The notes under the pieces are model-generated. The model did no database searches. It was not told the DNA's origin and saw only the letters and a program-made list of their open reading frames with translations. From contig OX439050.1 in the NCBI GenBank assembly GCA_949317995.1, forward strand, positions 50,345,777 through 50,409,776: 64,000 nucleotides of DNA. The letters run 5' to 3'. The position numbers and the translations under genes were made by a program. Shown piece after piece: positions 34,638-64,000 of this stretch; the first letter of the stretch is position 1, and the number at the start of each line of letters is the position of its first letter. This DNA is from Acholoe squamosa. Lineage: Eukaryota; Annelida; Polychaeta; Phyllodocida; Polynoidae.

Positions 34638-34651
34638 GGGGCAATCGAACC

Positions 34652-38872: not shown

Positions 38873-38885
38873 TTGCACTCCAAAC

Positions 38886-42437: not shown

Positions 42438-42450
42438 AGGCCGTGGTGGA

Positions 42451-43335
42451 ATGGAGTCCACCCGAGCTCCCCCGGGCGGTGGCCGAGGCCGAGGTGGTGC
42501 TACGGTTGAGGGCCCGTCTGTCCCTCCAGCAGGCGCTCCGCCTGCCACTGTGGAGGCCGCCGCGCCCCCACCAGTTATAGTTCCACCAACGGCCCCTCGG
42601 GTGCCCGTTATGGAACTGATATCAGGAACTCTGTCAGGTCTTCAGGATCCGAACACGTTTGTTGATCATCGCGATGTTCAAACGGCCAGGATCCAGAATG
42701 ACCTGATGGCGGAATGGCAGGCATTGCATCGCCAGAAGTCAGTCGACTACTGGCGTGTAATGACTGAAGCCACCTTCAACCTGGTCTACAAGGTCCAGAA
42801 GAGGGAGGAAGAGAAAATTCAGGTGCAGGAAAGGAAGAATGTCGAGGAGGCAATCCAATCCTGCCGGCGCCAGCAGTTGGAAGCTGAAAAGCTTAAAGAG
42901 TTCCACCGCGCTGAGAACGCCGGGTACATCCGTAAGTACAAGGAGGCTGACCTCAAGTTCTTCCTCGCATTCGGGAAGCACTTGGACGAGTGGGACGGCT
43001 CTCCGTCGTCCCTGTCCTTCGCTCCGGCTGCTCCACCGGTTCCGGCTGCTCCACCGGTTCCGGCTGCTCCACCGGTTCCGGCTGCTCCACCGGTTCCGGC
43101 TGCTCCACCAGTTCCGGCTGCTCCGCCCGTTCCGGCTGCTCCACCCGCTCCGGCTGCTCTACCTGCACCCGAGGCAGTGGACAGTCCGTCCGCGGTGATG
43201 AGCGCGCTGAGCTTGGGGAGCGACACGCCCAGCGAGACCTCCACGCTGCTCTCTGTGAGCAGTTGCAGCAGCTCGGCTCCGGCTGCCTCAGCGGAGTCGG
43301 CTGAGAAGATGGACACGGATCCGGAAGATCTTTAA
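42451..43335 (+). CDS. element A downstream ORF 3 with PVPAAP repeats
   Basis: 294 residues: Pro/Ala-rich head, charged helical middle (VYKVQKREEEKIQVQERKNV), then at least six tandem PVPAAP units (43,030-43,150) encoded by near-perfect 18-bp DNA repeats, and a Ser-rich acidic end. Starts 13 nt after the previous stop. Relative in element B (LDEWDGS motif). No known domain. Confidence 0.65.
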   Translation: MESTRAPPGGGRGRGGATVEGPSVPPAGAPPATVEAAAPPPVIVPPTAPRVPVMELISGTLSGLQDPNTFVDHRDVQTARIQNDLMAEWQALHRQKSVDYWRVMTEATFNLVYKVQKREEEKIQVQERKNVEEAIQSCRRQQLEAEKLKEFHRAENAGYIRKYKEADLKFFLAFGKHLDEWDGSPSSLSFAPAAPPVPAAPPVPAAPPVPAAPPVPAAPPVPAAPPVPAAPPAPAALPAPEAVDSPSAVMSALSLGSDTPSETSTLLSVSSCSSSAPAASAESAEKMDTDPEDL

Positions 43336-44562: not shown

Positions 44563-44842
44563 TGTAATAATCACAGAAGACCAGACTCAGCAAATAAAGT
44601 TCTATAACAGTTGAAGGCGTTTGGTTTATTTCTTATGGGTCTTATGGCTAACAGCTCTCATCAATTCTTGTATCAACATCAATTATCCTTGCTTGTTATG
44701 AAATGCACCACCCTTACAGGCCGTCACCGGTCGCAACCACCAAACCCAGAGTCGCCGACCACACGTCTGCCACCTGGAAGTCTCTAATTGCATTCCCCCA
44801 CTGCGACCACCGAACCGACTTTTATTGTGTGACGAGCTGTGA
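44563..44842 (-). repeat. element D 3' LTR, truncated
   Basis: Matches 54,061 onward (TGTAATAATCACAGAAGACC...) until GACGAGCTGTGA, where the two copies diverge. About 120 bp of the U3 end, and the polypurine tract, are missing. Confidence 0.88.
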
Positions 44843-45300
44843 GCTGGGCCGGGCCTGGAAGTCTTGCTGCTGTGTGCGCTGGCCCTGGTGCTCCGGGCAC
44901 CCAGAGGGTTGGACCATAGGTCGGTGCGGGATATCTCGCAGGCGTCGCCATGGCTGCGCCCCCGACTGGGCATGGAGGGGGTGGTGCCATCTCCTGGTTC
45001 CCCCTTGGACTGTCGTTGCATAGTAATTAGTTTGTACCGTCGACGGCCCGTATAACTCAACCCAGCCGTGAGCTCTTCCCCCTACAGGCGTATACTCCTC
45101 CCCCAAGTCCGACGATGGGGCCAGGTCTGATGCCCACCTCTGGAGGCGGTCCGGTTGTTCCACCCGCTTCCAGGGTATGCGTTCAGGGTGGTCGCCATAC
45201 CAGACAGGGCAACCTCCAAGAGGGTCCATCCCCTCCGCGCGGGGAAACTCCGGCTCCCGGGGCCATTCGGGGACGTACTCCCCCCATTCATCGGCCCATT
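44843..45300 (-). other. element D 3' region
   Basis: No supported reading frame between the charged tail and the truncated LTR. Confidence 0.4.
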
Positions 45301-46552
45301 CGTCCCTCCTCTCGCGACGTAGCCGTGGACCCCCCCGATCTCTGCCATGGCATCTTCTCCGTGTGTCCTCGTAGCGATCCTGCTCATACTCATTTTGGTC
45401 CCGTCGCCGATCATATTCCTCATACTCTCGCTGCCTCTCGAATTCTACATCTTCCCATCTCCCATATCCTCGCCTCTCGCCATCTCCTTCACGCCTAGGG
45501 TCGTGGTCATCCTGACCCCTATATCTTCCCTCTTCCTGGTTTCTCTCTCTCCTTCTCTCGATCGCTCCCTTTCTGTGTCTTCCCTCTGTCTCTCCTCCCT
45601 TTCCCTTCTTTCTCGCACTTCCACTTGTTTCTCCTCTCTCTCCCGTCGGTCCCTATCGTCGCTCTCCTTCTCTTTCGCATTAAGTTCCTCCCAGTCCTTC
45701 TTCTCCTTCTCACTCTTCTCCTTCTGTTTCTCTTTGTCCTCTTTCTCTTTCCTATCTCGTTTCTCTTTCTCCCTCTTTCTCTTCTCTCTTTCCTCCTTTC
45801 TCTCCTTATCTTTGTCCTCCTTCTCCTTGCGTTTCTCCCTCTCCTCCCCCTCTCTCTTGTCCTTATCCTCTTTCTCTTTCTGTTTCTCCCTTTCTTCCCT
45901 CTCTCTTTTGTCCTTATCCTCCTTCTCCTTACGTTTCTCCCTGTCTTCCCTCTCTCTCTTATCTTTGTCCTCCTTCTTGCATTTCTCCCTCTCCTCCCTT
46001 TCTCTTTTGTCCTTATCCTCCTTCTCTCTGTGTTTATCTCTCTCCTCCCTTTCTCGCTTTTCCTTATCCTCTCTCTCCTTGTGTTTCTCCTCCCTCTCTT
46101 GCTTCTCTCTGCCCTCCTTCTCTTTGCGCCCTTCCTTCTCGTCCTTCTCTTTCTTTTCTTTGTCCTCATTCTCTCTTTTTCTTGTCTCGGCGCTCCTTAT
46201 CCTCTTTCCCCTCTTTCTCTTTGTCGCGCCGCCGGTCTTTGTCTTCTCTCTCTTTCTTCACCTCACGGCTCTTTCTATCATCCTCTCCCTTATCACCTCT
46301 CTTATCCTTCCTTTGGCTTTTATGCTCCCCCTCTGTTTTCCCCGTACTCCCCTCTGTCTCTTTAGTAAGAGTCGCGGTTGCTTCCTCCGCACCTGCACAC
46401 GGCTCGTTCGCCAACTCCCCCTTAGCCTGGTCTGTCTCCCCCGTCGGATATGCGTCTTTCCCTGGGGTCATCTCGGGGGTGTGGGCCTCCCTGCGCACGA
46501 CTCTCCTGACATCGCCTTTGTCAGGCGAAGAGCCTCCCTCCGAATCGGTGTC
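45300..46552 (-). pseudogene. element D charged helical tail of the zinc-finger protein
   Basis: Follows an in-frame TAA (46,553-46,555): the same frame reads REAHTPEMTPGKDAYPTG and a Lys/Glu/Arg-rich stretch to a TGA at 46,166. One base out of frame, the sequence continues as many repeats of a KEDKDKREREEREK pattern, predicted as a single alpha helix, then Arg/Asp/Tyr-rich repeats (REYEEYDRRRDQNEYEQD). Probably the C-terminal part of the upstream protein after a stop and a 1-nt shift. The long plus-strand open frames here are antisense shadows. Confidence 0.55.
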
Positions 46553-48868
46553 TTAGGCGACTGCCCTGTTTGAGACCTGGTTGGGTGGAAGTATAAACGG
46601 GTCCTCCTCCTCCCAGTCCAACTCCTCTGGCTCCTCCCCCAAGTCTACCCGGGAAGCCATAAGGCGCTCCAGCCGTCCTCCCACCACGGATGTGTTGTTT
46701 TCCGACGTGTGGGTTGGGACCGTCTGCGGTGACGACGTCAGTATCTGACGAACCTGCTCTGCGTCCCTGAGGGTCGCCGCTCCCTCAGTCTCCGGTGCCG
46801 CTGCCTCGAACAGTGGGGACGACGCTATACTGACCTCGTGGCCGGTAGGGGACAGCCAGGACTTTTTCCGCAGCGCTTCTGCAATCAGGCATTTCTGGAA
46901 CTCCTTCTTAGCAGTCTCCGCCATCTCCTCTGCCCTGCGGTTTGTCTCCTTCAGGAGCTCGGCAGGAACCAGGGTCCCGTCGCTGTCTATTATCAGGGAC
47001 TGTAATAAGATCGGGTTCCCATCTCCGCTGGACGCCGGGCCACTCACCACCTGCTCCAGCAACTGGTTAGCCTCCTCTGCCAGGTTCTCCGGCTCCCCCT
47101 GTCCCAACTGTTGTGCCAATATCCGCGCGGCCTCGAAGTCCTCAGTGGACCTGGTGCTCATCAGATCCCCCTCAGCGTTTACGGCCAGGGTGGGAGGGTC
47201 CACAGAGTCCTCCTCCGTAGCTGCTGACGTGGAGGCCACTGATTCCGGTGCCGTCTTCAGCATCTTAGAAGGGGGGCTGCACTCCCCCTCCAGTGTCCCC
47301 TCTTGGCCCCCTTCTCCTAGCATTATCTTGGGCAGGTTCGAATCCCAGGGGGTCTCGTCTTCGCCCATCTCACGGTTGCCCTTACGTTTCCAGCCTTTCT
47401 CCGTTTCGGTCCGTTCCCCCGGTACGTTGGGCCGTCCTAACAGTGAGCGGCTGCGCCGCCGGGTATTTCCAGTGGTGACCGCACCCACCATGCTGCGGAC
47501 TCTCGGGCGTCTGGGAGAGCACCTAGGGGTCTCCTTACTCTCCTCTGGAGTTGGGGTTCGTCGTCTCTCCGTAGGCGTCTCCTCCACCCCCGAACTCTCT
47601 AGCAGTCGTTTGGTGGCCAAATGTGCTGCCCTTCGACTGCTTCTGCGCCGTGGCGTTGGGGACGTGGGGGACCCCTGCGAAGAATCCAGGCTTTCCTCTC
47701 CACCCCCTTGCTCCCCGGCGACCGAGGTGGCTTCGCGCCCATGATATTGGATGATATTCTTCGGTGGCCGCTGGCTTCGTGGCAACGTGATCCACTCATG
47801 GCTGGCATGCAGAGCGACTAGGTGGCTGACCAACTCATCCCATCGGCCGCCTTTTACCTGGAACTTGCATCGCAATACAGGGCAATTCAACCCCGGTCCA
47901 CACGACTTGTGCTGGGCTAGAACATGACGGTTTAGCACGTCCTTTCGCCAGAAAGTACGGCCACACTCGGGGCAATTCAGCAGTGTCTCCGATTTCCTCA
48001 TGTTGTTGTCACACTCTGTGGCCCAGCTATAGCCTCGTTCTCGTGCCTTGTGGTCGGTGGTACGAATGAGGTCACGGTGTGGTTCCCGGGCATCCCGCCA
48101 GGTGGCCTCACAATCTCGGTGGTAGCCTTCGGTGGCCCATCCTTCACTTGCCTGTCGTTGCTCTTCCCACCGCCAATTCTTGGCTGTAAAAATACCTTGT
48201 ACCGCCTTACTCATGTTTTCCTGTGTTTCCCCCTTCTCTTTTGGAATGACTGTGCAATATTCTGGAGTTTTCCCTCTGGGGTCCCAGTCCACCACCGCAA
48301 CTTCTTTTTCTCTTTCTAGCAGGGTCAGAAGCCCCCCCCCCCCCACAGGGGATCTCAATTCGGCCCTTCCCAAACTATTACCCACTACTGCTCTATCTCC
48401 CACTAACGGTTCCTTCTCTTCTCTTGCAGATGAGCCATGCCCCACCGGAGCCCTGGAAGCGACCACCCCCAAGCCCACCGACCGCCCTTTTCCGGCTCCC
48501 AGAAGGTAAGTTCTGTTATCCTCACTATGTCTCGGGACGCCCTGGGGTAGATTTACTATGAAGGAAGGTTGTAAACGTCTTCCTCTGCCTTTCCACACCT
48601 TTTCTAACCCTTCTGCTCGCTCCTCCGTGGCCATAGGGAAGCGCTCCCTCTCTTCCTCTCCCACCGCGGCGGCAGTTGTCAAGGCAACGCCGCCGGAGCC
48701 CGGATGTGGCGGGAAACCGACCGCCGCCTCCAGGTGGCGCGCAGGTGACCCTGCCACCATGGTGGCAGCCGGTGGCGCTGCCGGAGGCCAGGCCCACTGT
48801 TCTGGGGCCCCGACTACTCGAGCCTCCCCTACCGATTCCTTCTGGGTTCTGGAACCTTCTTTAACAGG
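46553..48868 (-). CDS. element D zinc-finger extension
   Basis: In the same frame as the integrase C-terminal domain and separated from it only by TGA 48,869-48,871; 735 codons are open from ATG 48,760. Two fingers: CPECGRTFWRKDVLNRHVLA followed by QH (C-X2-C-X12-H-X4-H, canonical) and CPVLRCKF...SHLVALH (C-X4-C-X14-H-X4-H). Long acidic/Ser-rich region after the fingers. This arrangement parallels the fused pol of element C. No known family beyond the fingers. Confidence 0.8.
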   Translation of the reverse strand, partial: PVKEGSRTQKESVGEARVVGAPEQWAWPPAAPPAATMVAGSPARHLEAAVGFPPHPGSGGVALTTAAAVGEEERERFPMATEERAEGLEKVWKGRGRRLQPSFIVNLPQGVPRHSEDNRTYLLGAGKGRSVGLGVVASRAPVGHGSSAREEKEPLVGDRAVVGNSLGRAELRSPVGGGGLLTLLEREKEVAVVDWDPRGKTPEYCTVIPKEKGETQENMSKAVQGIFTAKNWRWEEQRQASEGWATEGYHRDCEATWRDAREPHRDLIRTTDHKARERGYSWATECDNNMRKSETLLNCPECGRTFWRKDVLNRHVLAQHKSCGPGLNCPVLRCKFQVKGGRWDELVSHLVALHASHEWITLPRSQRPPKNIIQYHGREATSVAGEQGGGEESLDSSQGSPTSPTPRRRSSRRAAHLATKRLLESSGVEETPTERRRTPTPEESKETPRCSPRRPRVRSMVGAVTTGNTRRRSRSLLGRPNVPGERTETEKGWKRKGNREMGEDETPWDSNLPKIMLGEGGQEGTLEGECSPPSKMLKTAPESVASTSAATEEDSVDPPTLAVNAEGDLMSTRSTEDFEAARILAQQLGQGEPENLAEEANQLLEQVVSGPASSGDGNPILLQSLIIDSDGTLVPAELLKETNRRAEEMAETAKKEFQKCLIAEALRKKSWLSPTGHEVSIASSPLFEAAAPETEGAATLRDAEQVRQILTSSPQTVPTHTSENNTSVVGGRLERLMASRVDLGEEPEELDWEEEDPFILPPNQVSNRAVA

Positions 48869-49951
48869 TCATAATGTACCACCCTTTTCTTGCGTCCCAT
48901 CTGTATCTCCCATACCGGGCCTCCTAGGCTCCTTGTGATTTTCCAGGGCCCTGACCAGGGGGCGCATGAACTTTGGGCACTTGCCCACCTCTTTCTTCAG
49001 GACCATATAGTAGACATTGTCCCCAACTTCCAAAGGTTCGCCTCGTACCCTGGTCGAATAATTCCTTTCTTGACGCCGGACGGCCTCTCCCATTTGCCGG
49101 AGGGCGTAGGCATGCCCTTTTGCCATCCTACCCTGCAATTCGGCCGCGTAATCATCATAGTCCTCCGGCTTATCCCCCACTCGTTCTGGTGCTGGGTACA
49201 TAAGATTTCCCCAGCATCAAGAAGTTAGGGGTTTGGTTGGTAGAGGCTAGCACCGAGGATCTATATGCGGCCATCATGTACGGGAGCTGTAAATCCCAGT
49301 CCTTCTGATCCATGGACATGGCCAGCATGGACTCCACCATGCGATTGCAGCGCTCTACCAACCCATCAGACTTCGGATTATAGGGGCAGGTCCGTGTTGT
49401 CGCCACCCCCTACAACCTATGCACCTCTTGGAACATCTGGGCCTGGAAGTTCCGCCCCTGGTCCGTATGGATCGTGCCCGGGGGTCCCAAGTGGCAGACC
49501 ACCTCCGTGACAAAAGCCCAAGCGACTATTTCGGCCTCCTGATCTGGCAAGGCCACCGCCTCCGTCCATCTAGTAAAATAATCCATGACGATGAGGATAT
49601 GCCTATTCTTCCGTGGGAGGGGGCCCATCAAGTCCATGGCCATCCTTTCCAACGGACATGCCACCGGCACATGCCGCATCATGGCCCAGGGGGTTGAGGT
49701 GCCGCCTTCCAACTCAAGCACTGAGGGCACGAGGCCAGCCACTGAACCACGTCCCTCCTGTAGTTGGGGCAATAGTAGGCCTGCTGGAACCGCCTCAGAC
49801 TCCTGGCTCTGCCGAAGTGACAACTCAAGGGAGCCCCATGAACGCTGGCCAGGACCTCCTCCTTCTTGCTATCCAGCACCAAAACCTGCAGGAAGGTCCG
49901 GCCTCCCGGCTCCCACCATACTCGGCAGAGTACCCCGGCTTCCAATCGCAA
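48869..49951 (-). pseudogene. element D integrase
   Basis: HHCC domain (HGAPLSCHFGRARSLRRFQQ, CPQC), core residues MDLMGPL, HTDQGRNF and GLVERCNRMVE (D, D, E all visible), and a GPY/F-region remnant (EVGDNVYYMVLKKEVG). Two frame changes and one stop interrupt it. Confidence 0.88.
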
Positions 49952-50770
49952 TCAGGGGAACTGTACCACCAGGGTGTCTACGGCATAATTTTCCCCTGCA
50001 AGGGCATCCTTCGAAGTGACTTTGTCATCCTCGACCCATTTCCTCACTCGTGTGAGCACTGGATCATCGTTCTGAGCCTGCCTCCAGACTCCCCTTTGAT
50101 CCACAAATATCCCCTCATCTACTTCCGGCATTGCTTCGGGAGCTCCCCTTTCCTCCACGGCCTTGTCAGCAGCAGCTTCGCTTCTAGTTACCACTCGACA
50201 CTCCGCCAGGGTCCCAATAGCCCTCTCCCGTTCCCCCGAAAGGTCCTCAAACGGTGGGGAACCCGGTTGCTCCCCCATGCCACACTGGCTGCAGGGCCTC
50301 CAGGACAACCCATCTGCGTTGCATCTCCTTCCTTCTGTGTTGCCAGGATCCTTTCCCGGACGGTGCTCAATGACGTGGTCAAAGGTCTCTAGTAACTGTA
50401 GCCATCTAGCTACCTGACCCTCGGGTTCCTTGAAACTGGCCAACCACTTTAGAGCGACATGGTCGGTCCGGATGCGTACTGGGTGTCCCACCAAGTAGTG
50501 GCGAAATTTCTTCACCGCGAACACGACCGCCAACAGTTCCCGGCGGGTGACAGAGTAATTCCTCTCGCACCGACTCAAGGTACGGCTAGCATAGGCCAAA
50601 GGCCGCTCCTGATTATCCTGTACTTGGGTCAGCACCGCCCCCAATCCGAGGTCGCTGGCGTCAGTGTCCACCAGGAGGCGTCCTTCGGCCATCGGATAGG
50701 CCAGGATGGGTACGCTCACTAATTTATCCTTGAGAACCTGGAAGGCCTCAGCACAGTCCCGATTCCATGA
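49952..50770 (-). CDS. element D RNase H and linker
   Basis: LLVDTDASDLGLGAVLTQVQ, TRRELLAVVFAVKKFRHYLV, RTDHVALKWLASFKEPEGQV: gypsy RNase H. The upstream part is separated by the SINE-like insertion, which falls between the RT thumb and RNase H. Confidence 0.9.
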   Translation of the reverse strand, partial: SWNRDCAEAFQVLKDKLVSVPILAYPMAEGRLLVDTDASDLGLGAVLTQVQDNQERPLAYASRTLSRCERNYSVTRRELLAVVFAVKKFRHYLVGHPVRIRTDHVALKWLASFKEPEGQVARWLQLLETFDHVIEHRPGKDPGNTEGRRCNADGLSWRPCSQCGMGEQPGSPPFEDLSGERERAIGTLAECRVVTRSEAAADKAVEERGAPEAMPEVDEGIFVDQRGVWRQAQNDDPVLTRVRKWVEDDKVTSKDALAGENYAVDTLVVQFP

Positions 50771-50953
50771 TTGATTGATTGATTGATTTGTGTTTTACAG
50801 CACTTTAGCGGCACTAAGTGGCTATCCCGTGCTTCACAGGTTGATAATTTAACAGAGGAATGTGTCAGTGCCCGCGCATATGTGCACCACACACATCCTG
50901 AAGGGATAGGAAAGAGGAGACAAAGACCCTTTTAAGTGGGCTAGGGAAGCCCG
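50771..50953 (-). mobile_element. SINE-like insertion with 12-bp target duplication
   Basis: 183 bp flanked by CCGATTCCATGA at 50,759-50,770 and 50,954-50,965. On the minus strand it starts CGGGCTTCCCTAGCCCACTT and ends in an (AATC)n tail. A tail of simple repeats and a 12-bp duplication indicate LINE-mediated retrotransposition. No clear pol III boxes. A relative sits at 28,710-28,910. Confidence 0.88.
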
Positions 50954-50965
50954 CCGATTCCATGA

Positions 50966-51740
50966 GAACCTCTTATTCTTCTCGGTTAGCTCCGAGAGTG
51001 GCTTAGCGATAAATCCGAAGCCAGGCACGAAACTGCGATAGTAGCCGCACAGGCCTAGAAAAGAGCGTACCTCCGTCACTGAGGTTGGCACCGGCCACCC
51101 TGACACAGCAGCGATCTTCTCGGGGTCCGTGCCAATCCCCTCTTTGTCAATTCGGTGGCCCAGGAAGTTTACCTGTTCACGCACCAGCTGGCACTTGGAG
51201 GCCTTTATTTTTAGGCCCGCTTCCTGCAGGCGCCCTAGGACAAGCTACAATTGCTCAGCGTGCTCTTCCAAAGACTCCGAGAAAAGGATGATGTCATCTA
51301 GGTACACCAGGCACGCTGTCCATTAAAGGCCCCTCATGACAATCTCCATGAGTCTCTCGAACGTCCCGGGGGCATTGCAAAGCCCGAAGGGCATCACTCT
51401 AAATTGAAAGAGACCACGGGTGCGTAACGAAAGCAGTCTTTGGTTTTGACTCCTCCTCCATCGAGACTTGCCAGAACCCGGACGCCAGGTCAATGGTGCT
51501 AAACCAACAAGCCCCAGACATGGAGTCTAGCGAGTCGTCCATCCGCGGGAGGGGATATGCGTCCTTTATTGTGACAGAGTTCAGTTGCCTGTAATTGACA
51601 CAAAATCTAACACGGCCATCTTTCTTTTTCACAAGGACTACGGGGATCGCCCAGGGGCCCACGGCAGGCTCAATCACCCCTTGCTGAAGCATCTTATCAC
51701 CTCTTGGTCGACCACCTCCCGCCTGTGCGGAGCCAAACAT
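50966..51740 (-). pseudogene. element D reverse transcriptase
   Basis: VVLVKKKDGRVRFCVNYRQL, DAYPLPRMDDSLDSM, MPFGLCNAPGTFERLM, LVYLDDIILFSESL, EVRSFLGLCGYYRSFVPGF. Frame is lost near 51,410, and TAA/TAG stops lie just before YLDD and in the following helix. Confidence 0.9.
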
Positions 51741-52683
51741 CGGGGTGCCAGTTTTATGGGGGCAGCCACCCCTGTGTTAATCGCGTGTGCTACCACATCC
51801 GTATGGCCCAGGTCTTCATCCCCCTCCTGGAATGCCGCGCGATTACGCTCCAACAGTCGGACCCATTTCGGGTCCCGTTCGACCCTCGACCCCCTTAACA
51901 GGATTGCAATCAAGTCGGCTCCCGGGGTGCCAGCGACAGTTCCGTGTAGCTCCTGGTCGCCTTCTGTTACCATCCTACACACCGGCTTGCTTATTACCTC
52001 TGCATGTCCGAGATGCATACCCCGGTATACAGTAACTGAGTCGGGCCCCGGGTTACAGACTAACAGGGACACATCCCCTCCTCTTGGCCGCGATAGCGTA
52101 CGGCCAACCCAGATTCCCCGGGAGCTTTCTACCCGTGGCAGGCCCTCCACAACCACCTCTTCCCCTTCAAATCTTGGCAGAACTCGGCCCATGATTACCT
52201 TTTCAGAGGCTCCTCCTACCACTTCAGTGGCTATGCTGACTATCCTACAATTGTCAGTCTTGACTGTCTCTGGCCACAGGAACCTACCCTCTGCCAGATT
52301 GATGGTAGCCCTTGTCTCCCTTAAGAAGTCGGCTCCCAGTAGACCGGCCGCCGCAATATCAGCAATGACAAACGATGTACTCTCCTTCCTTGCTCCGCAT
52401 TGCAGGACCGTGGAGACCCTGCCCTCTACTTGCAGGGGCTTTTCATCGGCAGTGTGAAATGCCGACGTGGTCGGGGCCACCTCTCCTGGGGATCCCGTCC
52501 CCTTCTACCACGCTGTAGACAGCAAATTACTGGTAGCTCCGGTGTCCACCACTAAATGAATCGATTGTTCCCACAGCACTCCTTCCACCTCGAGGCTGTT
52601 CCCCTTCCTCTCCTTCCTCCCCAGCCATTCTCTCTGCTGTTCGGCAGTGTGGGTCTTCCCCCGGCTGACGGTGGAGACCCCTT
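51674..52683 (-). pseudogene. element D protease and spacer
   Basis: Begins in the -1 frame after gag. IHLVVDTGATSNLLSTAW has the catalytic DTGA at 52,535-52,546. A TAG at 52,505-52,507 replaces a Trp codon of element C. LLGADFLRE and a Gly/Val-rich region follow, open to 51,674. Confidence 0.85.
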
Positions 52684-54008
52684 CTAGTTTCCCAATGACT
52701 TAGCCTCGGCATCCCTTCTCCTGGCCGCCTCCACACGCTTCTTCCAGGCAGGGCAATTGCGTTTGAAATGCTCCTCCGACCTGCACTCGAAGCATGATCT
52801 CCTTGGCCCGGGCTGTACGCTCTCCTTCTTGATAGACTGGCCCCGTCTTATTTCCGTTGTGAGGCCGGCCAACTGTTCCTTGATTTCTGACATTTCCTCT
52901 GCCATGGATCGTGACAAGGAACGGACTTGCTTATTTTTCTCTCTTGTTTGAGGTAGGCCTCCGCCTGCACTCCTTTCTCTACTGCTTGGAGTAAATTCTT
53001 TGTCTCCCCCTGATACATCCAGTTACGGAGTTCCCCATCGTCTAAGCATTCTACAAAACGGTGCTTAGCCATCACATCTACCGTTGCAGCATCCGCATTA
53101 GGGTACAACAGGTGAACTAGTCGCGATATTTCTTCGGAGAGTGTTTGTAGTTCCTCGCCTGGCTTTCTCACTCTGGTGCGGAGCAGGGCCTTGTAGGACT
53201 CCCCTTGGCTCTGGGGTTGGAATCGGTTGATCAGCGCTTCCCGCAAGTGCCTATACCCATCTTCTGACGAGGGTTTGACGGCCGCAAGCAATCTCCTTGC
53301 CACGCCTGATAGACTAATCCCCAAAAAGGTTCCAGCTTCCTTCTCCGACCACCTGTTGGCCAGGACGCAGAGGTCGAAGTGAGATAGGAATTCCTCCAGA
53401 TCACTTGATCCATTGTATTTGCCTGGCATCACGATAGGCTTTCGTGTGGGGCCGTCGCCCCCTGCCCCAGGGGTCTCTTCTGCAGCCGAGGGTTGTCTGG
53501 CCAACACTGCTGTAGGTATCACATCCCCTCTGGGCTCCACTGCGGTCCTTAGAGTCTCCGGGCCCCCGCCTCTCTCCCCATGGGTCACTCATCTCCCGAC
53601 CATTACCCTCTGGTGTCCTACTAGATCCCTCCCGCTTAAAATAGGCTTTGGCGCCCCACCGCTTGCACCACCGGACGCCCCCCGGAAAGGATTATAACTT
53701 CTCCTGGCCACATTTTCGCTTGGAACCGTCTGTGGCTTGGCCATAAAGTCGAAGAACTCCCCCAACCCTCTCTCTGCAGGCCTTTCCTCCTCTCGCCTCA
53801 CTTCCCACCAACTGAGGGGGTTTTTAGTAGCCCCCGACCACCTTTCTTCCCCACCGGCTGAGTCGGTGGTACCACTGGCCACCTCCGGCGTCTCCTCTTG
53901 CAACTGTCTCCGAAACAATATCTCCTCATCCACTATTTCTACCACAGATCCTTTTCTCCCCCTACTCAGCCCTTCCTCTTCTCCACCACTAAATTCGCTG
54001 TCTGCCAT
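52684..54008 (-). pseudogene. element D Gag
   Basis: ATG 54,008, 52 nt inside the 5' LTR. Acidic head (VVEIVDEEILFRRQL, similar to element C's VLLEVVDEEVTLRQR), capsid (LEEFLSHFDLCVLANRWSEK, NRFQPQSQGESYKALLRTRV), knuckle CFECRSEEHFKRNC. An in-frame TGA (53,589-53,591) and one frame change near 52,920 break it. Confidence 0.88.
52687..52693 (-). promoter_or_regulatory. element D gag-pol slippery heptamer
   Basis: GGGAAAC immediately before the gag TAG (52,684-52,686), in the X XXY YYZ register for -1 frameshifting; pol continues in the -1 frame. Confidence 0.8.
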
Positions 54009-54060
54009 TTTTCTTTTGTGATTGCGCGGGTTCGGGAAATACCAACAGCGCTGTCACCAA

Positions 54061-54457
54061 TGTAATAATCACAGAAGACCAGACTCAGCAAATAAAGTTC
54101 TATAACAGTTGAAGGCATTTGGTTTATTTCTTATGGGTCTTATGGCTAACAGCTCTCATCAATTCTTGTATCAACATCAATTATCCTTGCTTGTTATGAA
54201 ATCCACCACCCTTACAGGCCGTCACCGATCGCAACCACCGAACCCGGAGTCGCCGACCACACGACCACACGACCACACCTGGAAGTCTCTAACTGCATTC
54301 CCCCACTGCGACCACCAAACCGACTTTTATTGTGTGACGAGCTGTGACGTCACAGGCGTGACATCACCAGTCGCCACCATGTCGCCCCCAGGCGGGATAG
54401 ACCCCAACTACCGCTCCCGGGCCGGTGGCTGCCACCGAGCTGACCGTCTACTCCACA
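54061..54457 (-). repeat. element D 5' LTR
   Basis: 397 bp. On the minus strand it ends ...GATTATTACA and is followed by TTGGTGACAGCGCTG, the presumed primer-binding region, also found after the LTR of element C. Confidence 0.9.
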
Positions 54458-55184
54458 ATACTAGTAATAACTATTAATAAGTGATATATAATCACTACAA
54501 TACCGTATTTTTGTATTAACCCCCAATGGTTAAATACTGGGTACTCCTGAGCTGTCCCAGATATGCTGCATATTACGAGTGATTGTTTGATCGACCGATC
54601 TGGAAGACGTATGTGACCGTTCATTGGGGGAGCAGTCACTCCACATTGCATCCGGATACCTCACCTGGACAATTATTCATATACTGTGGACTATTTAGGG
54701 GCATAAAAGCATAATCGAGGATATTGCTATTATGTTATCCAAAACGTCATTATATATTATCCCAGAACTTTAGCACTACGTAGAGGATTAGGGTAGCTGC
54801 CCTATCAACATCCATATTAAATAATACTGCAAAAGACAATAGCACATCCATCCGGTGGTTAGCTGACCACGGGGTTTACGTTAGACGCTCGAGGGACCGG
54901 GATCATCAGCCCAGGGATTGTCATATACATGTCTATATAAATTTGGACACTTGTTCTATAATTAGAACTACTAGTATATTACTTTGACTGTGACTATTCA
55001 TATATGATTACGGGTATTATCTCTGTTCAGTATCGACATGACCAAGTCAACCATAACTGTGTTCATATATGAAAATCATTTAATGATCTGTGATTCGGAT
55101 GGTTTTCATAACTTATCTACTAAATGACTGAGTCATTTCTGTTAATATATTGTTGAATATGTGTATATATATATATATATATAT
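54458..55184. other. DNA between elements D and C
   Basis: 727 bp AT-rich, no gene recognised, ending in a TA-rich stretch where element C sits. It may be the displaced remainder of element B, but no homology proves it. Confidence 0.35.
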
Positions 55185-55561
55185 TGTGGCGGAGACGGAG
55201 GGGCCGTTGGCGGAGCCGAAACCATCCTGGTGTGGGGGCGGCGAGGCCAGCGGTCCTGAAGTAACGCGGTTACGTCGGCAATAGTAGTCGGCGGAGGAGA
55301 TCCTCCGACGCTGGCCTGCCGTAAAGCGGGCCGGGGTCGGAGTATCTGCCTATGTATAAATAAGGGAGTTGTTACTCCGATTAGTTAGTTCCGAGTTGCA
55401 GACAGAGAGGAGCAGAACTCTAAAAGGCTTATCTCCGGATTAATATATACGATATAAGACTTAGATGGTGTGGCGAGGACTGCCAGGAAATAAAAGACAC
55501 TGAAGTCAAGCTGTCGGAGTTGTGTAATTCTTTATTAACCATAGAGTCGGAAAACGCTACA
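55185..55561 (+). repeat. element C 5' LTR
   Basis: 377 bp, TGTGGCGGAGAC...CGCTACA, with TATAAATAA at 55,355-55,363 and AATAAA at 55,489-55,494, i.e. a plausible U3-R-U5 order. Confidence 0.88.
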
Positions 55562-55576
55562 TTGGTGACAGCGGTG
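55562..55576 (+). other. element C primer-binding region
   Basis: TTGGTGACAGCGGTG directly after the LTR, shared with element D. TGG at position 2 fits pairing with a tRNA CCA end; the tRNA was not identified. Confidence 0.6.
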
Positions 55577-55601
55577 TTTGAAGACCCACGAGAGAAAGAA
55601 G

Positions 55602-56957
55602 ATGGCGGAGGCTTCAGAAACGATAAACTTACCTGTGGAGAAGAGGGATACGGAGGAGATTAAGCGGGAAAAAGGGGTTTTGCTGGAAGTGGTGGACGAG
55701 GAAGTGACGCTACGGCAGAGAGGGGCGGTGAGGCCGGAAGAGATGAATCCGGAGAGACAAGCAGAACCCGCCGATAGAGCATCCCGGGAGGAGGTAACGG
55801 ACACGGGATATGAGGAACCACGCGTTAAAGAAAAGGAGCCCTACCTGTGGCCATGGGAGAGGGAGGAGAAACCGGCGGCCTGGAGGTTGAGGCACCCTAA
55901 AGGAAAACTGGGTGATGCAAATGCCTGGCTGGGGTTCAACCCGGGAAGGGACGATGGCGGAAAGGTGCTTTGGTGGCCGGAGGAGCAGGCGGAGATGAAT
56001 AACCCAAGGAAGGGGAGCAAGCGGGCACCGGCCGAGGTTCGCCCCGAAACCGGGAGACGTGCGGAGGAGGCGGATAAGGACGAAGTAGGGGAAGGTGGAG
56101 ATCTCCGGCAGGGTAGAGGAGTTATGGGTCGTCCGGAGGATGGCTGGAGAGGAGGTGCCGATGGGGAGAAGGAGGCAAAGGGTAAGCCAGTGGTGAAACC
56201 CGCTAAATATGATGGCACCACAGACCTATCTGACTACCTCAACCACTTCGACCTGTGCGTCAAAGTAAACGGATGGAAGCCAGAGGAGGCGGGTATGTTC
56301 CTAGGTCTGAGTCTGTCGGGGGCAGCCCGGAGATTGTTGACGGGAAGGAAACCAGCCACGCCGGAGGGGTATGAGGAGTTAAGAAGGGCACTCGTGGAAA
56401 GGTTTGAGCCTACTAATCAGGAAGAGATCTACAAAGCGTTCCTCCGCACTAGGGTCCGGCGAAAGGGGGAGGGACTGCAAGAGTTACAGGAAGAACTGAA
56501 AAAGTACACTAAGTTAGCATATCCGGAGGCAGACGCCCGGACGACAGACACCTTAGCGCTCGATAGATTCCTATTGTGCCTCGACAATCCACTCAGGCAG
56601 TGGGTGTATCAGTCAACACCGAAAGATTTACAATCCGCAGTAATGACGGCGGTGGGAGCGGAGGCGTACTTACAAGTGGAGCAGGAGAATATCCACAAAG
56701 TGCGGGCGGCGGATGCGTCAGTAAATGAACACCTCAAGTCCAACAAGGAGGAAATGAGCAAAATGGCGGAGTTGATGGAGCGGTTAGTTCAAAGGCTGGA
56801 TGATCCGGCGGTGTTGGGGAGGAAGAAAAAGCCAAGCAGTGGTGCTTGCTTCGGATGCGGACAGGAAGGCCATTTCAAGCGAGAATGCCCAAATATCAAG
56901 GCCAAGGAGGCACCCAGGCCGGTGAGCGAACAGGCTAGTCCGGCGGCGGGAAACTAG
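55602..56957 (+). CDS. element C Gag
   Basis: 451 residues from ATG 55,602 (MAEASETINLPVEKR). Acidic head with an E-V-V-D-E-E motif shared with element D, then capsid (DLSDYLNHFDLCVKVNGWKP, ALVERFEPTNQEEIYKAFLR) and the zinc knuckle CFGCGQEGHFKREC (CX2CX4HX4C). It ends at TAG 56,955-56,957, preceded directly by GGGAAAC. The structural protein for particle assembly and RNA packaging. Uninterrupted. Confidence 0.95.
   Translation: MAEASETINLPVEKRDTEEIKREKGVLLEVVDEEVTLRQRGAVRPEEMNPERQAEPADRASREEVTDTGYEEPRVKEKEPYLWPWEREEKPAAWRLRHPKGKLGDANAWLGFNPGRDDGGKVLWWPEEQAEMNNPRKGSKRAPAEVRPETGRRAEEADKDEVGEGGDLRQGRGVMGRPEDGWRGGADGEKEAKGKPVVKPAKYDGTTDLSDYLNHFDLCVKVNGWKPEEAGMFLGLSLSGAARRLLTGRKPATPEGYEELRRALVERFEPTNQEEIYKAFLRTRVRRKGEGLQELQEELKKYTKLAYPEADARTTDTLALDRFLLCLDNPLRQWVYQSTPKDLQSAVMTAVGAEAYLQVEQENIHKVRAADASVNEHLKSNKEEMSKMAELMERLVQRLDDPAVLGRKKKPSSGACFGCGQEGHFKRECPNIKAKEAPRPVSEQASPAAGN
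56948..56954 (+). promoter_or_regulatory. element C gag-pol slippery heptamer
   Basis: G GGA AAC in gag register, followed by TAG. Slipping back one base gives GGG AAA and opens the pol frame. The same heptamer serves gag-pro frameshifting in some retroviruses (established knowledge). A downstream RNA structure was not modelled. Confidence 0.85.
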
Positions 56958-59900
56958 AATCGACCTATACTAAAGGCCAAGTACAGGTCGAGGGAAGTGG
57001 GCCTATCAATGTGATACAGGGCCGCCGAGAGAGGGGCGGAGGAGGATTGATAGTAGAGGGTCGGCTGGCAGGGGCCCCCATCCAATTGCTGGTGGACACT
57101 GGTGCGTCGCTTAATCTGGTCTCCGAAGGATGGTGGAGCAGGTGGGGCGGACGGGGACGCCTGGGGGAAACGGCGGAGAAGATCTACTCCGTCGACGGGC
57201 GGCCTATGGACATAAAAGGGGAAGTGTACACAGAGCTGGAAATCGGGAGGCGCACTATCAATGTGCGTTTCGTAGTCAGCGACACCGGGACGGAGGGAAT
57301 CCTGGGGGCGGAGTTCCTCCGCACCAACAAACTAATGGTCGACGTAGCAAAAGGGCGCCTAGTGTGGACAGAGGAGGATTCCGTGTGCCGAATCGTCAGC
57401 ACCCGAGCGGCGGTGCTGGGATCCGGACAGGAGGCCATGCTAGAGGGAACTCTAGCCGGACCCTGGCAACAGGGGGACGACGGGATGATTGAAGGGATGG
57501 CCGGACACAAGGGTGAACCGAGCTTCCTGGTGGGGCGGGGGCTGGTATGCCCCGAGGGGAGGGCAACTTGGGTCAGGGTGCTCAATCCTGGTCCTGAGCC
57601 AGTGGTGATATATAGAGACATGACTCTAGGGGCCATTCAACGAGTGGAGTGCAGAGGCGGAGGCGAGACAGTGGCCGGAGAGGGATGGTGCCGGATGGTG
57701 GAGAGAGGTGAGCCGGAGGAGCTAAAGTGTTTGGTGGACGGGTTAGTGAGCGGGACGGAGGCTCACCGTAGAAAGGAGCTTGCACGGCTTATAAGGAAAC
57801 ACCTGGGGGCATTTCAGAGGCATAAGGGCGACAAAGGGCACACTCAATTGGCCAAGCATAGGATTGATACGGGGGTACATCCACCTATCAAACAACCGCC
57901 GAGGCGATTGGCACCCCATAGACGAGAGGCGGTAGAAGAGGAGGTGGAGAAGATGTTGGAAGCCGGAGTGATTGAGCCATCCACTAGCCCGTGGGCTTCT
58001 CCGGTGGTCCTAGTAAGAAAAAAAGATGGTACCACTCGCTTCTGCGTGGACTACCGGAGGCTCAACGCCGCCACCGTGAAGGATGCTTATCCCCTGCCTA
58101 GAGTGGAAGATTGTCTCGATACCATGGCGGGGGCCGCGTGGTTTTCGTCAGTGGATCTGGCCAGCGGCTACTGGCAGTTGGATATAGAGGAGGGGGATAA
58201 AGAGAAAACAGCATTCACGACACACCGGGGGCTGTTCCAATTCCGGAGAATGCCCTTCGGTTTGTGCAATGCGCCAGGCACCTTTGAGAGGGTGATGGAA
58301 GTGGCCATGAGGGGACTACAGTGGAAAACTTGTTTGGTCTATCTAGACGACATAGTCGTATTCTCCGCCACCTTCGAGGAGCATCTTGGCCGGCTTGGGG
58401 AGGTACTTCAAAGGCTGGAGGATGCTGGGCTTAAGATCAAGCCCTCCAAATGCCAGTTGGCTCGCCGCAGAGTGTTATTCCTGGGCCACCAAGTGAGTGA
58501 GGCGGGGGTAGAGACGGATCCGGAAAAGATAGAGGCGGTGCAGTCGTGGCCCACTCCGACCACGGTGACGGAGGTCCGGAGTTTTCTGGGGCTAGCCGGC
58601 TACTACAGGACCTTCGTTCCTGAGTTCTCTACGAGGGCTAAGCCACTGAGCGCGCTGGCCGAGAAAGGGAGGACGTTCCGGTGGTCGGAGGAATGCGAGG
58701 CCTCATTCCAAGACCTAAAAAAGAGACTAACCGAGGCCCCTATCCTGGCTTTCCCCCAGGCGGAGGGACAGCTTACCTTAGACACCGACGCCAGTGACAC
58801 AGGCCTCGGAGTGGTACTGTCCCAGGAGCAGACGGGGGTAGAGAGGGTCCTAGCCTATGGCAGCCGCACTCTCAGCAGGCCGGAGCGTAACTATTGCGTT
58901 ACAAGGAGGGAGCTGCTGGCTATAGTCTTTGGCCTCAGGAAATTCAAGCATTACCTAATAGGGAGGAGGGTGGTAGTCCGAACAGATCATGCCTCCCTGC
59001 GGTGGCTGTTGGAGTTCAAGGAGCCGGAGGGCCAGCTGGCTCGATGGCTGCAGATTATAAGTACTTACGACATAGTGGTGCAGCATAGGCCGGGAAAACT
59101 ACATGGGAATGCGGATGGGCTGTCCAGGAAGCCCTGCAAGCAATGTGGGCGAGAGGATGAGGAGGAGCTACTGCATTGCCGGGTTTTCACAAGGTCTCAA
59201 CGCCAGGAGATGGTTCGGGGGGCGCCTCCGGCGGCGGGGGACTCCACTCCGCCGGCAGGGAGAGAGTGGGGCACACTCCAAGCGGAGGACGCTGTGCTGA
59301 CTCAGGTCAGAGCATGGGTGAACGGGGAGGCGACCACCACAGAGGAGGAAAGAAGGACCTGGGGCTATGAGCTGAGAGCCTGGCATGCCCAATTGGGGCG
59401 CATGAGTATAGAAAAAGGGATACTGGGCCGGTGGTGGGAAGGTGCGGCGGGGGAACGATGCTTCCAAATTGCTGTACCCACCCTGAGCAGGAATGATGTG
59501 CTCAGGGAGGTCCACGGAGAACCCTTGGCGGGGCATCTGGGCCGCAATAAAACCATCCGGCGCCTCCAGACAGGTTACTACTGGCCTGACTTCAGGAGGG
59601 AGGTGACCCTGTGGTGCGCCAGCTGTGAACCCTGTCTCCGGAGGAAGGCGGCTCCACCTCCGCACCGGGCACCAATGGGACATGTGGGTGCCGGACTACC
59701 CCTACAGAGGATAGCTCTAGACGTGATGGGTCCATTGCCCTTGTCCTCCGCCGGGAACCAATATATTTTGGTGGCGGCGGACTACTTCACTAAATGGACG
59801 GAAGCGTACGCTTTACCCAACCAGGAGGCACCCACGGTGGCCAGGGCTGTGGTGGAGGAGTTCATCTGTAGATTTGGAGCCCCGGCGGAGGTGCACACAG

Positions 59901-62900
59901 ATCAGGGCAAGAACTTCCAGTCGGGACTATTCAGGGAAATGGTGGCCTTACTGGAAGTCAGGCAGACCAGAACTTGTTCCTTTAGGCCCCAAAGCGATGG
60001 GATGGTGGAGCGGGCCAACCGAACAATTGAAATGCTGCTGGCGACTGTGGTGGCGGAGGACCAACGGGACTGGGACCGGCGGCTGCCATTTGTAATGGCG
60101 GCGTATCGCTCCTCCGCACACGCCTCCACGGGATTGTCCCCCAATCTTCTGATGTTGGGGCGGGAAACGGTCATCCCCCTGGATTTGGTTTACCCGCTGG
60201 AGCCCAATGTAGGGGGAGGAGTCGGTTATGTGGCCGAATTACAAACCACCATGACAAAAGCATACTCCGTCGCTAGGGAGGCCCTTGGAAGGTCCCTCTG
60301 CAGGCAACAGAGGAACTATGATGCAAGAGCCTCGGCAGGCGAATTCGCTGTTGGGGGCAGGGTCTTCTACTACCACCCTCTCCGGAAGAGGGGACTGACA
60401 CCTAAACTCCAGAGTTATTGGACAGGCCCATGGGAGATAGTGGGGCGCTTAGGGGAGGCGGTGTATAAAATTAAAAAGGGTAAAACTACCAGGGTAGTCC
60501 ATTACGACGCCCTAAAACTGGCCCCGGCGCGGGCCACGGCGGAGGATGTTCCCATGGAGGATGAAACAAGGGAGGCCGAGCCCCTATCTTCGGACAATTC
60601 AGACGAGGAGGAAGGAGGATCCGGAGGGGGCACCATCCGGCTGGTTCAGGTGACCCCGGGGACTGGAGCTGACCGGGAGGCGAAACTGCTGACCTGCAAA
60701 GAGAAAAAGAGACATCAAATAACTGAAACCTGTAAGGGAGGGGCAGCGGATAATGGAAATCGGAAAGAAGGTCTGCGGAGGAGTGCACCGAAGCCTGCCG
60801 GAACCAGCGCAGCCCGGGCCGTCAGACTGGCGCCTCAACTGGATACTTACCTTGGGGCGGAGTGGAGGAGCTGCAAAAGCAAGATGAGTCAAGAAGGCCG
60901 CGACTGGTGCGATGTATGGCTGGAAAATGAAAAAAGGTTGAAGGAAGAAGCCGAAATGTCACATTGGAGGGGGGTAGAACCAGAGGAGGACCCTCCCTAC
61001 GAGGAATGGTCCCTCCCCGAGATGGGCGAGTCGGATGAAGAGGGGGTGAGTGATGAGAGTGAGTTGGCCCACAGAAGGCGGAACCATGGCCAAAACGAGG
61101 AAATCAGGGCAGAAAGGTTAAGGAGGGCGGCGGATCCTGGCCGGAGGAGAATCAGGGAGAAGCATAGGGAAAGATGGTTTATTTACGAAATGATCGAGGA
61201 AGCCATCTACAACAACCATGAAAACGAAGAGAGGGAAGCCAGGAGGGTTGGACGCTGCAGAACAGCCATGACGAAGGGGAGGTCGGGAGGCCAGGCTCCA
61301 AATTCCTCGACGGCAGGCGGTGAGGCCGGCCGGCCGGCGGCCGGAGCGCCGCCTAGCGGAGCAGGGCCGGAGAGGCGGGAGTCACTAAGCAACCCTCATA
61401 ACAGGTTCTCCCCAATAAAAGGCGGGGGAAGGACCGTTAACGGTCAGTCTACAATGCAGGCCGGAGATGACACGCGGTTGGTGGTTCTAAGAGGGACAAG
61501 GCCCAAGGGTGAATCGAGTCGGGGTAGAAATGCTGGTGGAGGGTCAAAGAAAGTGTCTTCCACAGTGTCCAGCCACTCCCGGGAGGGCTCCACACGCTCA
61601 AGACACAGGGAGAGTCGGCGGAGGAGGAGGGAGAGAGAAAGATCTTCCGGCCACTCCTCCTCTAGCCGCTCCACTAGTGGCCACAGAAGGGACGGAGTGT
61701 CTGCCCGGACGGAGGCAGCCAGACATGGGAGGAGGGACTCGGAGAGCCGGAGTCGGAGTGGGAGCTATCGTAGGCGGAGGTCCTCGGCTGACCGCGGATC
61801 ACGTTCCCACGGCTCACAGCAGGCACGTGAGAGCGGAGGCGCCAATGGCGACAACGGTGTCCGGAGTAAGGCTATGATGCAATCGGGGGTTTCCCACGGC
61901 GTGGTGACGGAGGGTGGCCTGACCCAGGGGACGGTGATTGGAGGAGTAGGAAGAGGGGGCGTGACCACCGGGGGGAATATAAGGGAGCGCTATCCGCCTC
62001 ACCCTTCAATTCCTGTTAGCCTATGGACAACGCCACAACTAGTAATGCCTGTCTTCAAAAACAGAGACCAGAAGCCGGTCCCCACGGAGTGGGTGGACGG
62101 GGTGGAGCTGCCGAAGTATCGGTGCGAGATCTGCCGGAAAAGGGGGGACTCCAAGCAGTGGTACTTCATGAGATCCGATGGGATGAACCGCCATCTCCGC
62201 ACTCACGACGAGATGCAAGAGGGCTACCAGTGCCCTAAGTGTGAGTACATGGTAGCCAAGATCCGGGTGGATGATCTCCGGCGACACATCACGCGTATCC
62301 ACCCAGAGCTGGAGGACTGGCAGCCGCCGGAGGAGTGCAGGATGCTACCGGTGGGCCGGGCAACGGAGGCGGGAGGATCCTTGGCGGACAGTAGCCTTGT
62401 GGCTGCCCCAGCTAGCCCGGAGGAAGCTGTCAGGCTCACCACCACAAAGAGGAAGAGGGGGAGTGCGGTGGCCAAGAAAAAGAAACCGGTAAACGCCGCC
62501 TCCAAGCCCGGGGTCCCCCCGCCGCAGCAGGGCACCTCGGCGGGTGGAGGGGGTGCGGGGGACAGCCCCAGCGGATCTACATTCAGCGGCATGGCGTCGC
62601 CGGGAATAACGTTGGAGGAGGAGACGGAGGCTGCTGTCGCCTCCAAATACTTGGAGCAATTGCTGGGATTCCGCGTGGAGGGGACCAGCACACCCCAGAG
62701 CTGTCTCTCCGTCAGGTCCACCCGGAGTATGTCAGGGAAGGGGGTCAAGAGGGCCTTCGAGCCGGAGGGGGGGGAGGAATCGGCGGAAAAGAGGAAGAGA
62801 CAATCCCCACGGGGTAAGGAGCGGCAGGCGGAGGAGGAAGCGGGACCCTCCACCCCGCCACTGGCCACGGGGATACCCGACCTGACACCTCTACTGAGCG

Positions 62901-64000
62901 GGGGGGAGGTGGAAATAGACGAGGAAATGGCGGGGAAACTGAAGTTCGTCATAGGATTACTGGTAGAGAGATATGGACAGGCGGGGGAGACCCCCACCAA
63001 GACTCTGTTACGAATGCAACAGGAGGTGCCTCTAGGGGAAGTCAATGTGAGAGCCCTGGAGGCGGAGTACGAGGAAACCAAGAAAGACACTCCGACCTCC
63101 CGAACCTCCATAAAGTCGGCTGCCTACGAGGACATCTCCGCCACGAGTGGGGAGGACGGAGAGAGCTTGGGACTAGGGGGAAATGGGCTGGACTCTAGCC
63201 CCGAGAAGCAGCCCCCTTACGAACTAGTTAACAAGCCCAAACCCACCCTCTCCGGTGCCAGTCCCGAGACATTGCCCTCCTATGAGGATATGAGTAAACC
63301 TTCCCCTAGCAAACCGAAACCCATCCTGAAGACAGTTACAATCGTGACGCCTGAGCCGCCGGAGAAGGGTGAGGCGGGGGAGGTGGAAGGGGAGGATGAA
63401 ACCAGCGAGGAGTCGGAGGAGGTGGCCATCCCGGCATACGTCCAATCCTGCCCTAAACTGAAAGCCCAGTTCCTGGCCGTACTCAGCGATGCCAAGGAGG
63501 AGGAGCGAAAGAAGAAAAGAGAAATTAAACGGAAAGAGAGAGAGGAGGCGGAGAGGAAGGCCAGAGAGGCTGAGGAGCGCCGGAAGGCGGAAGAGGAACA
63601 GCGGAGAAAGGAGGAGGAGGAGAGGAAGGCCAAAGAGGCGGAGAAAGAAAGACTGAGGAAAGAGATGGAAACTAAAAGTAAAAGCCCTAAAGGAAAAGGG
63701 GCGGGAAAGTCTACGAGGAAGTTCAGCCTGGAGGGAGTGTTAAAAGAGGCGGAGGAGGAGGCCATACAGAACCGATCCATGGATGAGGGTACCGCCCAAT
63801 TAATGAGTAAATTTCAATCGTGTTCCGTAGGGACACCGGTGAAGGAGAAAGGACAGGCGGAGAAGAAGGTACCGAAGACCCCCCTCGTAGAGCCGGGGAC
63901 CTTATTTGCTCTACCCAAGTTGGATAGGTACCCCCGATCCGTGACTGTGGGGTTGGACGGGTTAGTCCTTTGCTCGCCCAAGGGGGAATTCTTGCTGCAA
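56948..64000 (+). CDS. element C Pol fused to a zinc-finger extension (2351 codons, open at the edge)
   Basis: I read the frame codon by codon and found no stop. Order: retropepsin (LLVDTGASLNLVSEG, about residue 50; GILGAEFL), RT (FCVDYRRLNAATVKDAYPLP; YLDD at 58,340-58,351), RNase H (LDTDASDTGLGVVLSQ; TDHASLRW; HGNADGLSRK), integrase (HHCC: HGEPLAGHLG, CASCEPC; D 59,720, D 59,900, E 60,008 with 35 residues between the last two), GPY/F (YWTGPWEIVGRL, about 60,415). Then about 1150 more residues: acidic/basic helical part, RS-like region (61,560-61,810), two zinc fingers (62,123-62,302), a Pro/Ser/Glu-rich region with SAAYEDISA and PSYEDMSK, and a charged helix (63,490-63,670). All catalytic residues are intact. 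The end lies outside the window. Confidence 0.93.
60540..62100 (+). other. element C extension, pre-finger region with RS-like stretch
   Basis: Part of the fused frame. Charged segment (WLENEKRLKEEAEM, HRERWFIYEMIEEAIYNNHE) and then SSHSREGSTRSRHRESRRRR, GHSSSSRSTSGHRR and RSRSGSYRRRRSSADR, resembling RS domains of nuclear RNA-processing proteins. Function inferred only from composition. Confidence 0.7.
62123..62302 (+). other. element C zinc-finger pair
   Basis: Finger 1: CEICRKRGDSKQWYFMRSDG then MNRHLRTH, C-X2-C-X19-H-X3-H with a longer loop than usual. Finger 2: CPKCEYMVAKIRVDDLRRHI then TRIH, C-X2-C-X14-H-X4-H. Part of the pol frame. Confidence 0.85.

Follow-up and report, generated by a model that had tools for sequence, protein, structure and literature searches.

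Element C, which lies in a 64,000-nucleotide stretch of the Acholoe squamosa genome (the window: C16 50345777-50409776, within a 1.48-Gb genome of 63 contigs), is by the organization of its sequence a young, recently amplified Ty3/gypsy (Metaviridae) long terminal repeat (LTR) retrotransposon. Its pol frame continues past the integrase GPY/F module into an in-frame extension, here termed X, that holds paired C2H2-like fingers. Comparison of copies across the genome indicates that this Pol-X fusion is inherited and selected and is not a one-copy accident. Family C inserts almost only in (AT)n microsatellites, far beyond background. We infer, with a probability of roughly 45%, that X acts as a nucleic-acid-binding tail attached to or associated with the integrase. 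The contiguous downstream sequence (L009) was added to the window, and the features of element C, in window positions, are as follows.

55164..55184, no strand: (AT)n target site flanking element C at its 5' end (sequence).
55185..55561, + strand: 5' LTR, TG...CA, 377 bp (LTR comparison).
55562..55576, + strand: probable primer binding site, TTGGTGACAGCGGTG, directly after the 5' LTR (sequence).
55569..56957, + strand: gag frame, read from stop to stop; a CCHC knuckle lies close to the end (PF00098, 23.9 bits, cutoff 20.8).
56948..57004, + strand: likely -1 frameshift signal (sequence and folding; pairing partly by eye).
57053..57322, + strand: aspartic protease (PR) domain (Pfam PF13650, 37.5 bits; PF13975, 34.8 bits).
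58013..58495, + strand: reverse transcriptase (RT; Pfam PF00078, 121.5 bits).
58682..59068, + strand: RNase H (Pfam PF17919 / PF17917).
59474..59989, + strand: integrase (IN), with H2C2 zinc domain at 59474-59650 (PF17921, 67.1 bits) and catalytic core at 59699-59989 (PF00665, 49.3 bits).
60416..60520, + strand: GPY/F module, YWTGPWEI...VHYDALKL (Pfam PF22938, 27.8 bits, cutoff 27.0).
60533..64000, continuing to the stop ending at 64573, + strand: in-frame Pol extension X, 1,346 amino acids overall (frame reading).
61560..61830, approximate limits, + strand: Arg/Ser-rich stretch (sequence).
62117..62302, + strand: paired C2H2-like fingers, C-X2-C-X19-H-X3-H followed by C-X2-C-X14-H-X4-H (sequence, Pfam, profile alignment).
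63497..63690, approximate limits, + strand: charged (K/E/R) stretch, probably helical (sequence).
64871-65247 (L009:2648-3024), beyond the window, + strand: 3' LTR (377/377 identical to the 5' LTR).

The pol frame runs from 56939 to the stop ending at 64573 and comprises 2,544 sense codons from stop to stop. It contains no stop, the other five frames hold 55-128, and under an independent-base model the chance of a 1,350-codon stop-free run is about 1e-23. Codon usage in the extension correlates with that of pol at r = 0.90 in frame, against 0.05-0.71 in the other frames. The original prediction, made from the window letters, had reported an open frame at 56948-64000 of 2,351 codons, and re-reading returns the same length; extending the contig as it had proposed brings in both the stop and the 3' LTR. 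The approximately 1150 residues that it placed past GPY/F are the in-window part of the 1,346, and the RS-like stretch, two C2H2-like fingers, Pro/Ser/Glu-rich region and charged helix that it described are all located in element C. Within X the fingers thus stand among RS-rich, disordered-looking and charged segments. Six further alternating AT bases follow immediately past the 3' LTR. The likeness to Ty3/gypsy elements lies in the TG..CA LTRs, the gag CCHC knuckle, the order PR-RT-RNaseH-IN, the GPY/F module, whose region is 43% identical to that of a second family, D, over 72 amino acids, and the 4-bp target duplications. In contrast to Ty3/gypsy elements, element C carries the 1,346-residue tail with its paired C2H2-type fingers after GPY/F.

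The pol frame is probably entered through -1 frameshifting at G GGA AAC (56948-56954), GGGAAAC being a classical -1 slippery heptamer. The gag stop TAG (56955-56957) follows within a 5-nt spacer, TAGAA (56955-56959), beyond which lies a 7-bp stem (56960-56966/56985-56991); the loop at 56974-56978 (AGGCC) is complementary to GGCCT at 57000-57004, a putative pseudoknot paired by eye. The fold of 56955-57060 has z = -2.84, with 1/200 shuffles equally stable, and GGGAAACTAG stands at the gag/pol junction both of element C and of one D-family copy. Ribosomes slipping at this site would produce Gag-PR-RT-RNaseH-IN-X, with X as the tail in the same frame.

Family C was searched with the extension piece 60530-62499, which reaches from just past GPY/F through the fingers, and the best 67 of 6,159 candidates were scored; these 67 copies are a lower bound and are silent on more distant relatives. 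They are 99-100% identical across the query piece, are spread over C1-C18, and show no stop within it (0/67), including between integrase and fingers, where the original prediction had suggested looking for one. The frame measures exactly 2,544 codons in 54 copies, 2,551 in one and less (1,141-2,526) in the remaining 12. Over 59030-63997, 30 of the 67 copies were set beside the window copy, and each differs from it at 0-5 positions; 13 distinct variants occur among them, nine synonymous and four not. Further LTR pairs at the spacing of element C were seen in an LTR search. On C15 and C6 several copies are clustered, so the copies need not all represent independent insertions.

The fusion recurs in family D, of which a decayed relative, element B, lies in the window.

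44563..54457, - strand: element B, with GTAT on both sides (ends and duplication by eye).
46553..48868, - strand: post-integrase frame of element B, 771 amino acids (frame reading, Pfam), with a related finger pair at 47804-47980.

With this post-integrase frame as query the best 58 of 1,808 candidates were scored, and 21 of those scored carry frames of 2,583-2,603 codons (about 2,586), a few-codon spread that perhaps comes from repeat changes. In copy L040 the piece fetched reads without a stop for 1,833 codons from integrase through GPY/F, fingers and a disordered-looking region into a long charged stretch, an arrangement of parts that D has in common with C. The integrases of C and D share 52% identity over 302 amino acids, and their finger pairs align with hhalign at E 2e-6 and probability 89.5 (C as a single sequence). 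The family D extension is under purifying selection, strongest at the fingers in the pair examined. Across element B and five relatives (15 pairs) the ratio of nonsynonymous to synonymous divergence (dN/dS) in the extension, calculated with a filter that removes poorly aligned columns and so lowers dN, falls within 0.17-0.35 for 14 pairs, the remaining, near-identical pair giving 0.69 (dS 0.026); in 13 of the 15, all within 0.17-0.35, dS is 0.26-1.28. Unfiltered, the pair L040-L042 gives 0.24 for the extension as a whole, and its fingers give 0.045 on an uncertain dS of 1.6. L041 has seven stops and L043 one in the extension frame, and these, like the decay of element B, push dN/dS up. The synonymous bias that the original prediction had sought in copies keeping the fusion is therefore found in 14 of the 15 D/B pairs, and its phrase 'selection or recent activity' holds on both counts, through the identical LTRs of C and the low dN/dS of the related D/B extension. 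Element B begins after its LTR much as element C does (TTGGTGACAGCG). Its LTRs, 44563-44842 and 54061-54347, match only there (94%); the 5' LTR seems to extend as far as 54457, and from this partial match one end seems rearranged. Tandem repeats of about 51 bp occupy 45540-46090, inside its charged coding part.

The target sites of family C were examined on 55 5' flanks, namely those of the window copy, of 46 others of the 67 copies (20 of the 67 fall outside the sample) and of eight LTRs from the LTR search, which gave ten flanks, two being dropped as 3' LTRs. Under the strict criterion, a perfect AT alternation had to extend over 10 bp or more right up to the LTR. Such an array is present in 42/47 flanks of the first group and, by eye, in 7/8 of the second, giving 49/55. 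Allowing the 3' side or a one-step break raises this to 53/55 by adding L063, L069, L124 and L140, which lie in or beside an array; the other two, L079 and L081, have short ATAT sites instead. On the 3' side, at least 10 bp of AT are found in 9/11. Two C copies with enough non-repetitive flank display 4-bp RTAT duplications, GTAT (L063/L064) and ATAT (L079/L130), and in most others the duplication is masked by the AT array. Family D provides the only like-for-like comparison: 19/21 of its 3' flanks start with RTA and only 2/21 have at least 10 bp of AT. It thus looks like a plain RTAY/ATAT-core element, as do the Drosophila Ty3 families in excerpts of PMC3276498. As background, 32/254 ATAT sites (12.6%) in window positions 1-28000 lie in such arrays, all of them in one 68-bp array. 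A core ATAT preference would therefore predict about 13% of insertions in arrays, against the 49/55 observed, and family C needs recognition beyond the core. In L124 a second C LTR end, in inverted orientation, stands across the same AT array at a distance of about 25 bases, and in the 5' flank of L057 a sequence resembling a C-type LTR end lies 16 bases away. Two families first taken as Ty3 controls (RVT_1 list, L082-L085) were dropped, as they end A-rich and are probably non-LTR. In two Ty3 families taken as further controls (L106-L109) no element end came into reach within 4 kb.

The C2H2 ligand pattern occurs twice in C and twice in D, below Pfam cutoffs. A protein database search with the extension scored 7,992 candidates, none at E <= 1e-3, and a PDB sequence search returned weak finger matches only (11 at E 0.033-0.097). 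For the C finger region, with B supplied as the second alignment row, AlphaFold2 gives a mean predicted local distance difference test (pLDDT) score of 77.6 and a predicted template modelling (pTM) score of 0.48; the second finger is better modelled, with a block pLDDT of 84-92. The finger helices read RSDGMNR/RVDDLRR in C and RKDVLNR/RWDDLVN in D.

In the proposed mechanism the core integrase would supply the RTAT cut preference, as in family D and in the reported Drosophila Ty3 elements, and X, or a C-specific part of it, would add a second layer by reading the target array or the chromatin on the array. Alternatively, X would supply the second layer by holding on to the LTR DNA of the element itself within the intasome. 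The fingers may thus hold the LTR, with the AT choice coming from another part of the tail or from the integrase. A narrower version, in which a Ty3/gypsy integrase would be permanently fused to a zinc-finger protein of a third open reading frame (ORF3) and the tail would set near-absolute (AT)n specificity at the level of DNA sequence, is doubtful.

Several points weigh against X as a binding tail that works with the integrase. Family D has a related X without the strict AT choice, so that the difference may lie in the integrase itself, and the link between X and the AT choice is indirect. The structure and chromatin of AT arrays are themselves out of the ordinary, and the array background is rough, resting as it does on one stretch with one array. 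The protease could release X, or X could be produced as a separate protein. Among the 21 long D frames, three show a single TGA in one of their match rows, at odds with the frame length. The fingers stay below the curated Pfam cutoff (PF18658, E 3.5e-5, 23.9 bits against 27.3), and a fold search against PDB gave no significant match (best E 0.32, CTCF fingers). By the zinc-finger recognition code, the helices of C and D would select G-containing sites, approximately NCGGNG, and not AT.

The main rival, tentative though to be taken seriously, is that X would be an accessory protein apart from the integrase, acting in genomic-RNA export, LTR trans-activation or counter-silencing, and released by the protease or translated from a spliced mRNA in the manner of CERV. 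In Cer1 of Caenorhabditis elegans the in-frame post-integrase region is the last exon of the spliced CERV mRNA, and CERV is needed for nuclear export of the genomic RNA (PMC10309623, in excerpt). The predicted NCGGNG site also fits a pentamer excess in the LTRs. Of all 5-mers CGGAG ranks first in the C LTR, with 6 occurrences where 0.85 are expected, and CGGTG shares first place in the D LTR (7, expected 0.93). Neither count was reached in any of 2,000 shuffles, and CGGNG lies upstream of the TATA box in 8/9 occurrences in the C LTR and 4/8 in the D LTR. Set against this excess, the C interior is likewise CGGAG-rich (3.1 per LTR length), a count as high is attained by some 5-mer in 1.8% of shuffles for C and 3.4% for D, the element B 5' LTR is weaker (CGGTG 3, P 0.06), the element A 5' LTR has none, and the motif counts are post hoc, the LTR letters having been in view when the motif was tested. 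Moreover, the direct fusion is kept in two families, and frameshifting would be an inefficient way to make a protein required in large amounts.

The same rival draws on other lineages of this genome in which the finger protein is a separate post-pol ORF, among them element A, a Ty3 element of the window that, like an upstream fragment at 31192-32130, has post-pol frames with a Cys/His pair; the two together span 31192-44294.

40018..43335, + strand: finger ORF3 region of element A, 3' of pol, in pieces 40018-41061, 41301-42437 and 42406-43335 (frame reading).

Among the relatives of element A, 24 of 109 scored have one frame of at least 1,170 codons in this region. In a family with a 1,425-codon pol (L106), pol ends at a stop, and about 530 bases further on begins another frame that has a Cys/His pair of its own; in L106 pol occupies 1-1287 and the finger ORF 1819-3999, in the same phase. 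Since the phase is shared, a fusion of the kind seen in C and D could arise by loss of the intervening stops, and it is plausible that a separate ORF3 was joined to pol in the ancestor of both. The fingers of D match the A-type ORF3 fingers weakly (E 0.0025, probability 12%); for those of C the comparison gives E 0.49 and does not establish homology.

It is unlikely that the integrase core, or the structure or chromatin of AT arrays alone, accounts for the AT specificity while X has some other role; this explanation overlaps the accessory-protein one, and the odds do not sum to 1. It draws on family D, which starts at RTA sites generally despite its related X, and on the ATAT-core Ty3 targets known in Drosophila (PMC3276498, in excerpt). 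An ATAT core alone would leave the 49/55 array insertions far above the one-array background expectation. X as functionless run-on coding, open merely through the youth of the copies, agrees with the near-identity of the 30 C copies compared and with the identical LTRs, yet it is highly improbable given that the diverged D/B extensions keep dN/dS at 0.17-0.35, with 0.045 at the fingers of one pair, and that the finger pair is common to C and D. An assembly artefact, or the single-copy captured host gene that the original prediction had envisaged, is refuted as stated, with no supporting point found, by the 67 scored copies over C1-C18 and a second family that carries the fusion.

LTR elements choose their sites mostly through a weak local motif combined with chromatin tethering, and in chromoviruses the C-terminal integrase module guides insertion. 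Element C resembles chromoviruses in bearing an extra module at the integrase C-terminus (PMC3605345, in excerpt); unlike them it has fingers instead and a far longer tail, and a Pfam scan of the part of the frame inside the window, which stops 573 bases short of the frame end, gave no chromodomain match at E up to 0.1. Cer1 likewise has an extension after integrase in the polyprotein frame. In the excerpted description (PMC10309623) its CERV part differs in measuring about 400 amino acids (polyprotein residues 1871-2272), in being joined by splicing and in having no C2H2 pair described. The Drosophila elements 297, 412 and Transpac share with family C a 4-bp duplication and an ATAT-type core (excerpts of PMC3276498); unlike these families, C is almost confined to long (AT)n arrays. 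Some HERO families, microsatellite-targeting non-LTR retrotransposons with their own endonuclease, have landing sites like those of family C, which is in contrast an integrase-based LTR element (excerpts of PMC4640811). Ginger DNA transposons have a gypsy-like integrase, with extra C-terminal OTU, Ulp1 and PHD domains in Ginger1 and RTATAY targets in Ginger2; they differ in being DNA transposons with inverted repeats and in the identity of the extra domains (excerpts of PMC2836005). Searches of open-access PMC text brought to light no Ty3/gypsy element with a C2H2 Pol extension or with strict (AT)n insertion. The original prediction had stated that no gypsy lineage was known with such a fusion, which stands within those searches for the C2H2 fingers and falls for in-frame post-integrase extensions at large, others being known.

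Family C combines a recent burst of near-identical copies with near-exclusive use of a simple DNA repeat, and offers a favourable case for studying how the landing sites of such elements are selected. With family D beside it, which has a related tail and a much looser choice, the cause of the specificity is directly testable. The comparison of C and D with the separate-ORF3 lineages suggests how separate and Pol-fused accessory genes may relate in Ty3 elements.

AT-hook-like motifs occur in the pol C-terminal tails of element A (about 39340-39390, KRPRGRPRKMP) and of L106 (about 1040-1090, KRRRGRPARKA); no such motif turned up in the inspected pieces of C, D and the 1,632-codon family. The last is a Ty3 family with a 1,632-codon frame, whose pol end (L108, about 1200-1443) looks chromodomain-like by eye and has no Pfam match. 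Minisatellite arrays occupy 6682-7746 of the window (38-bp unit, 28 copies) and 28413-29492 (54-bp-type G-rich unit).

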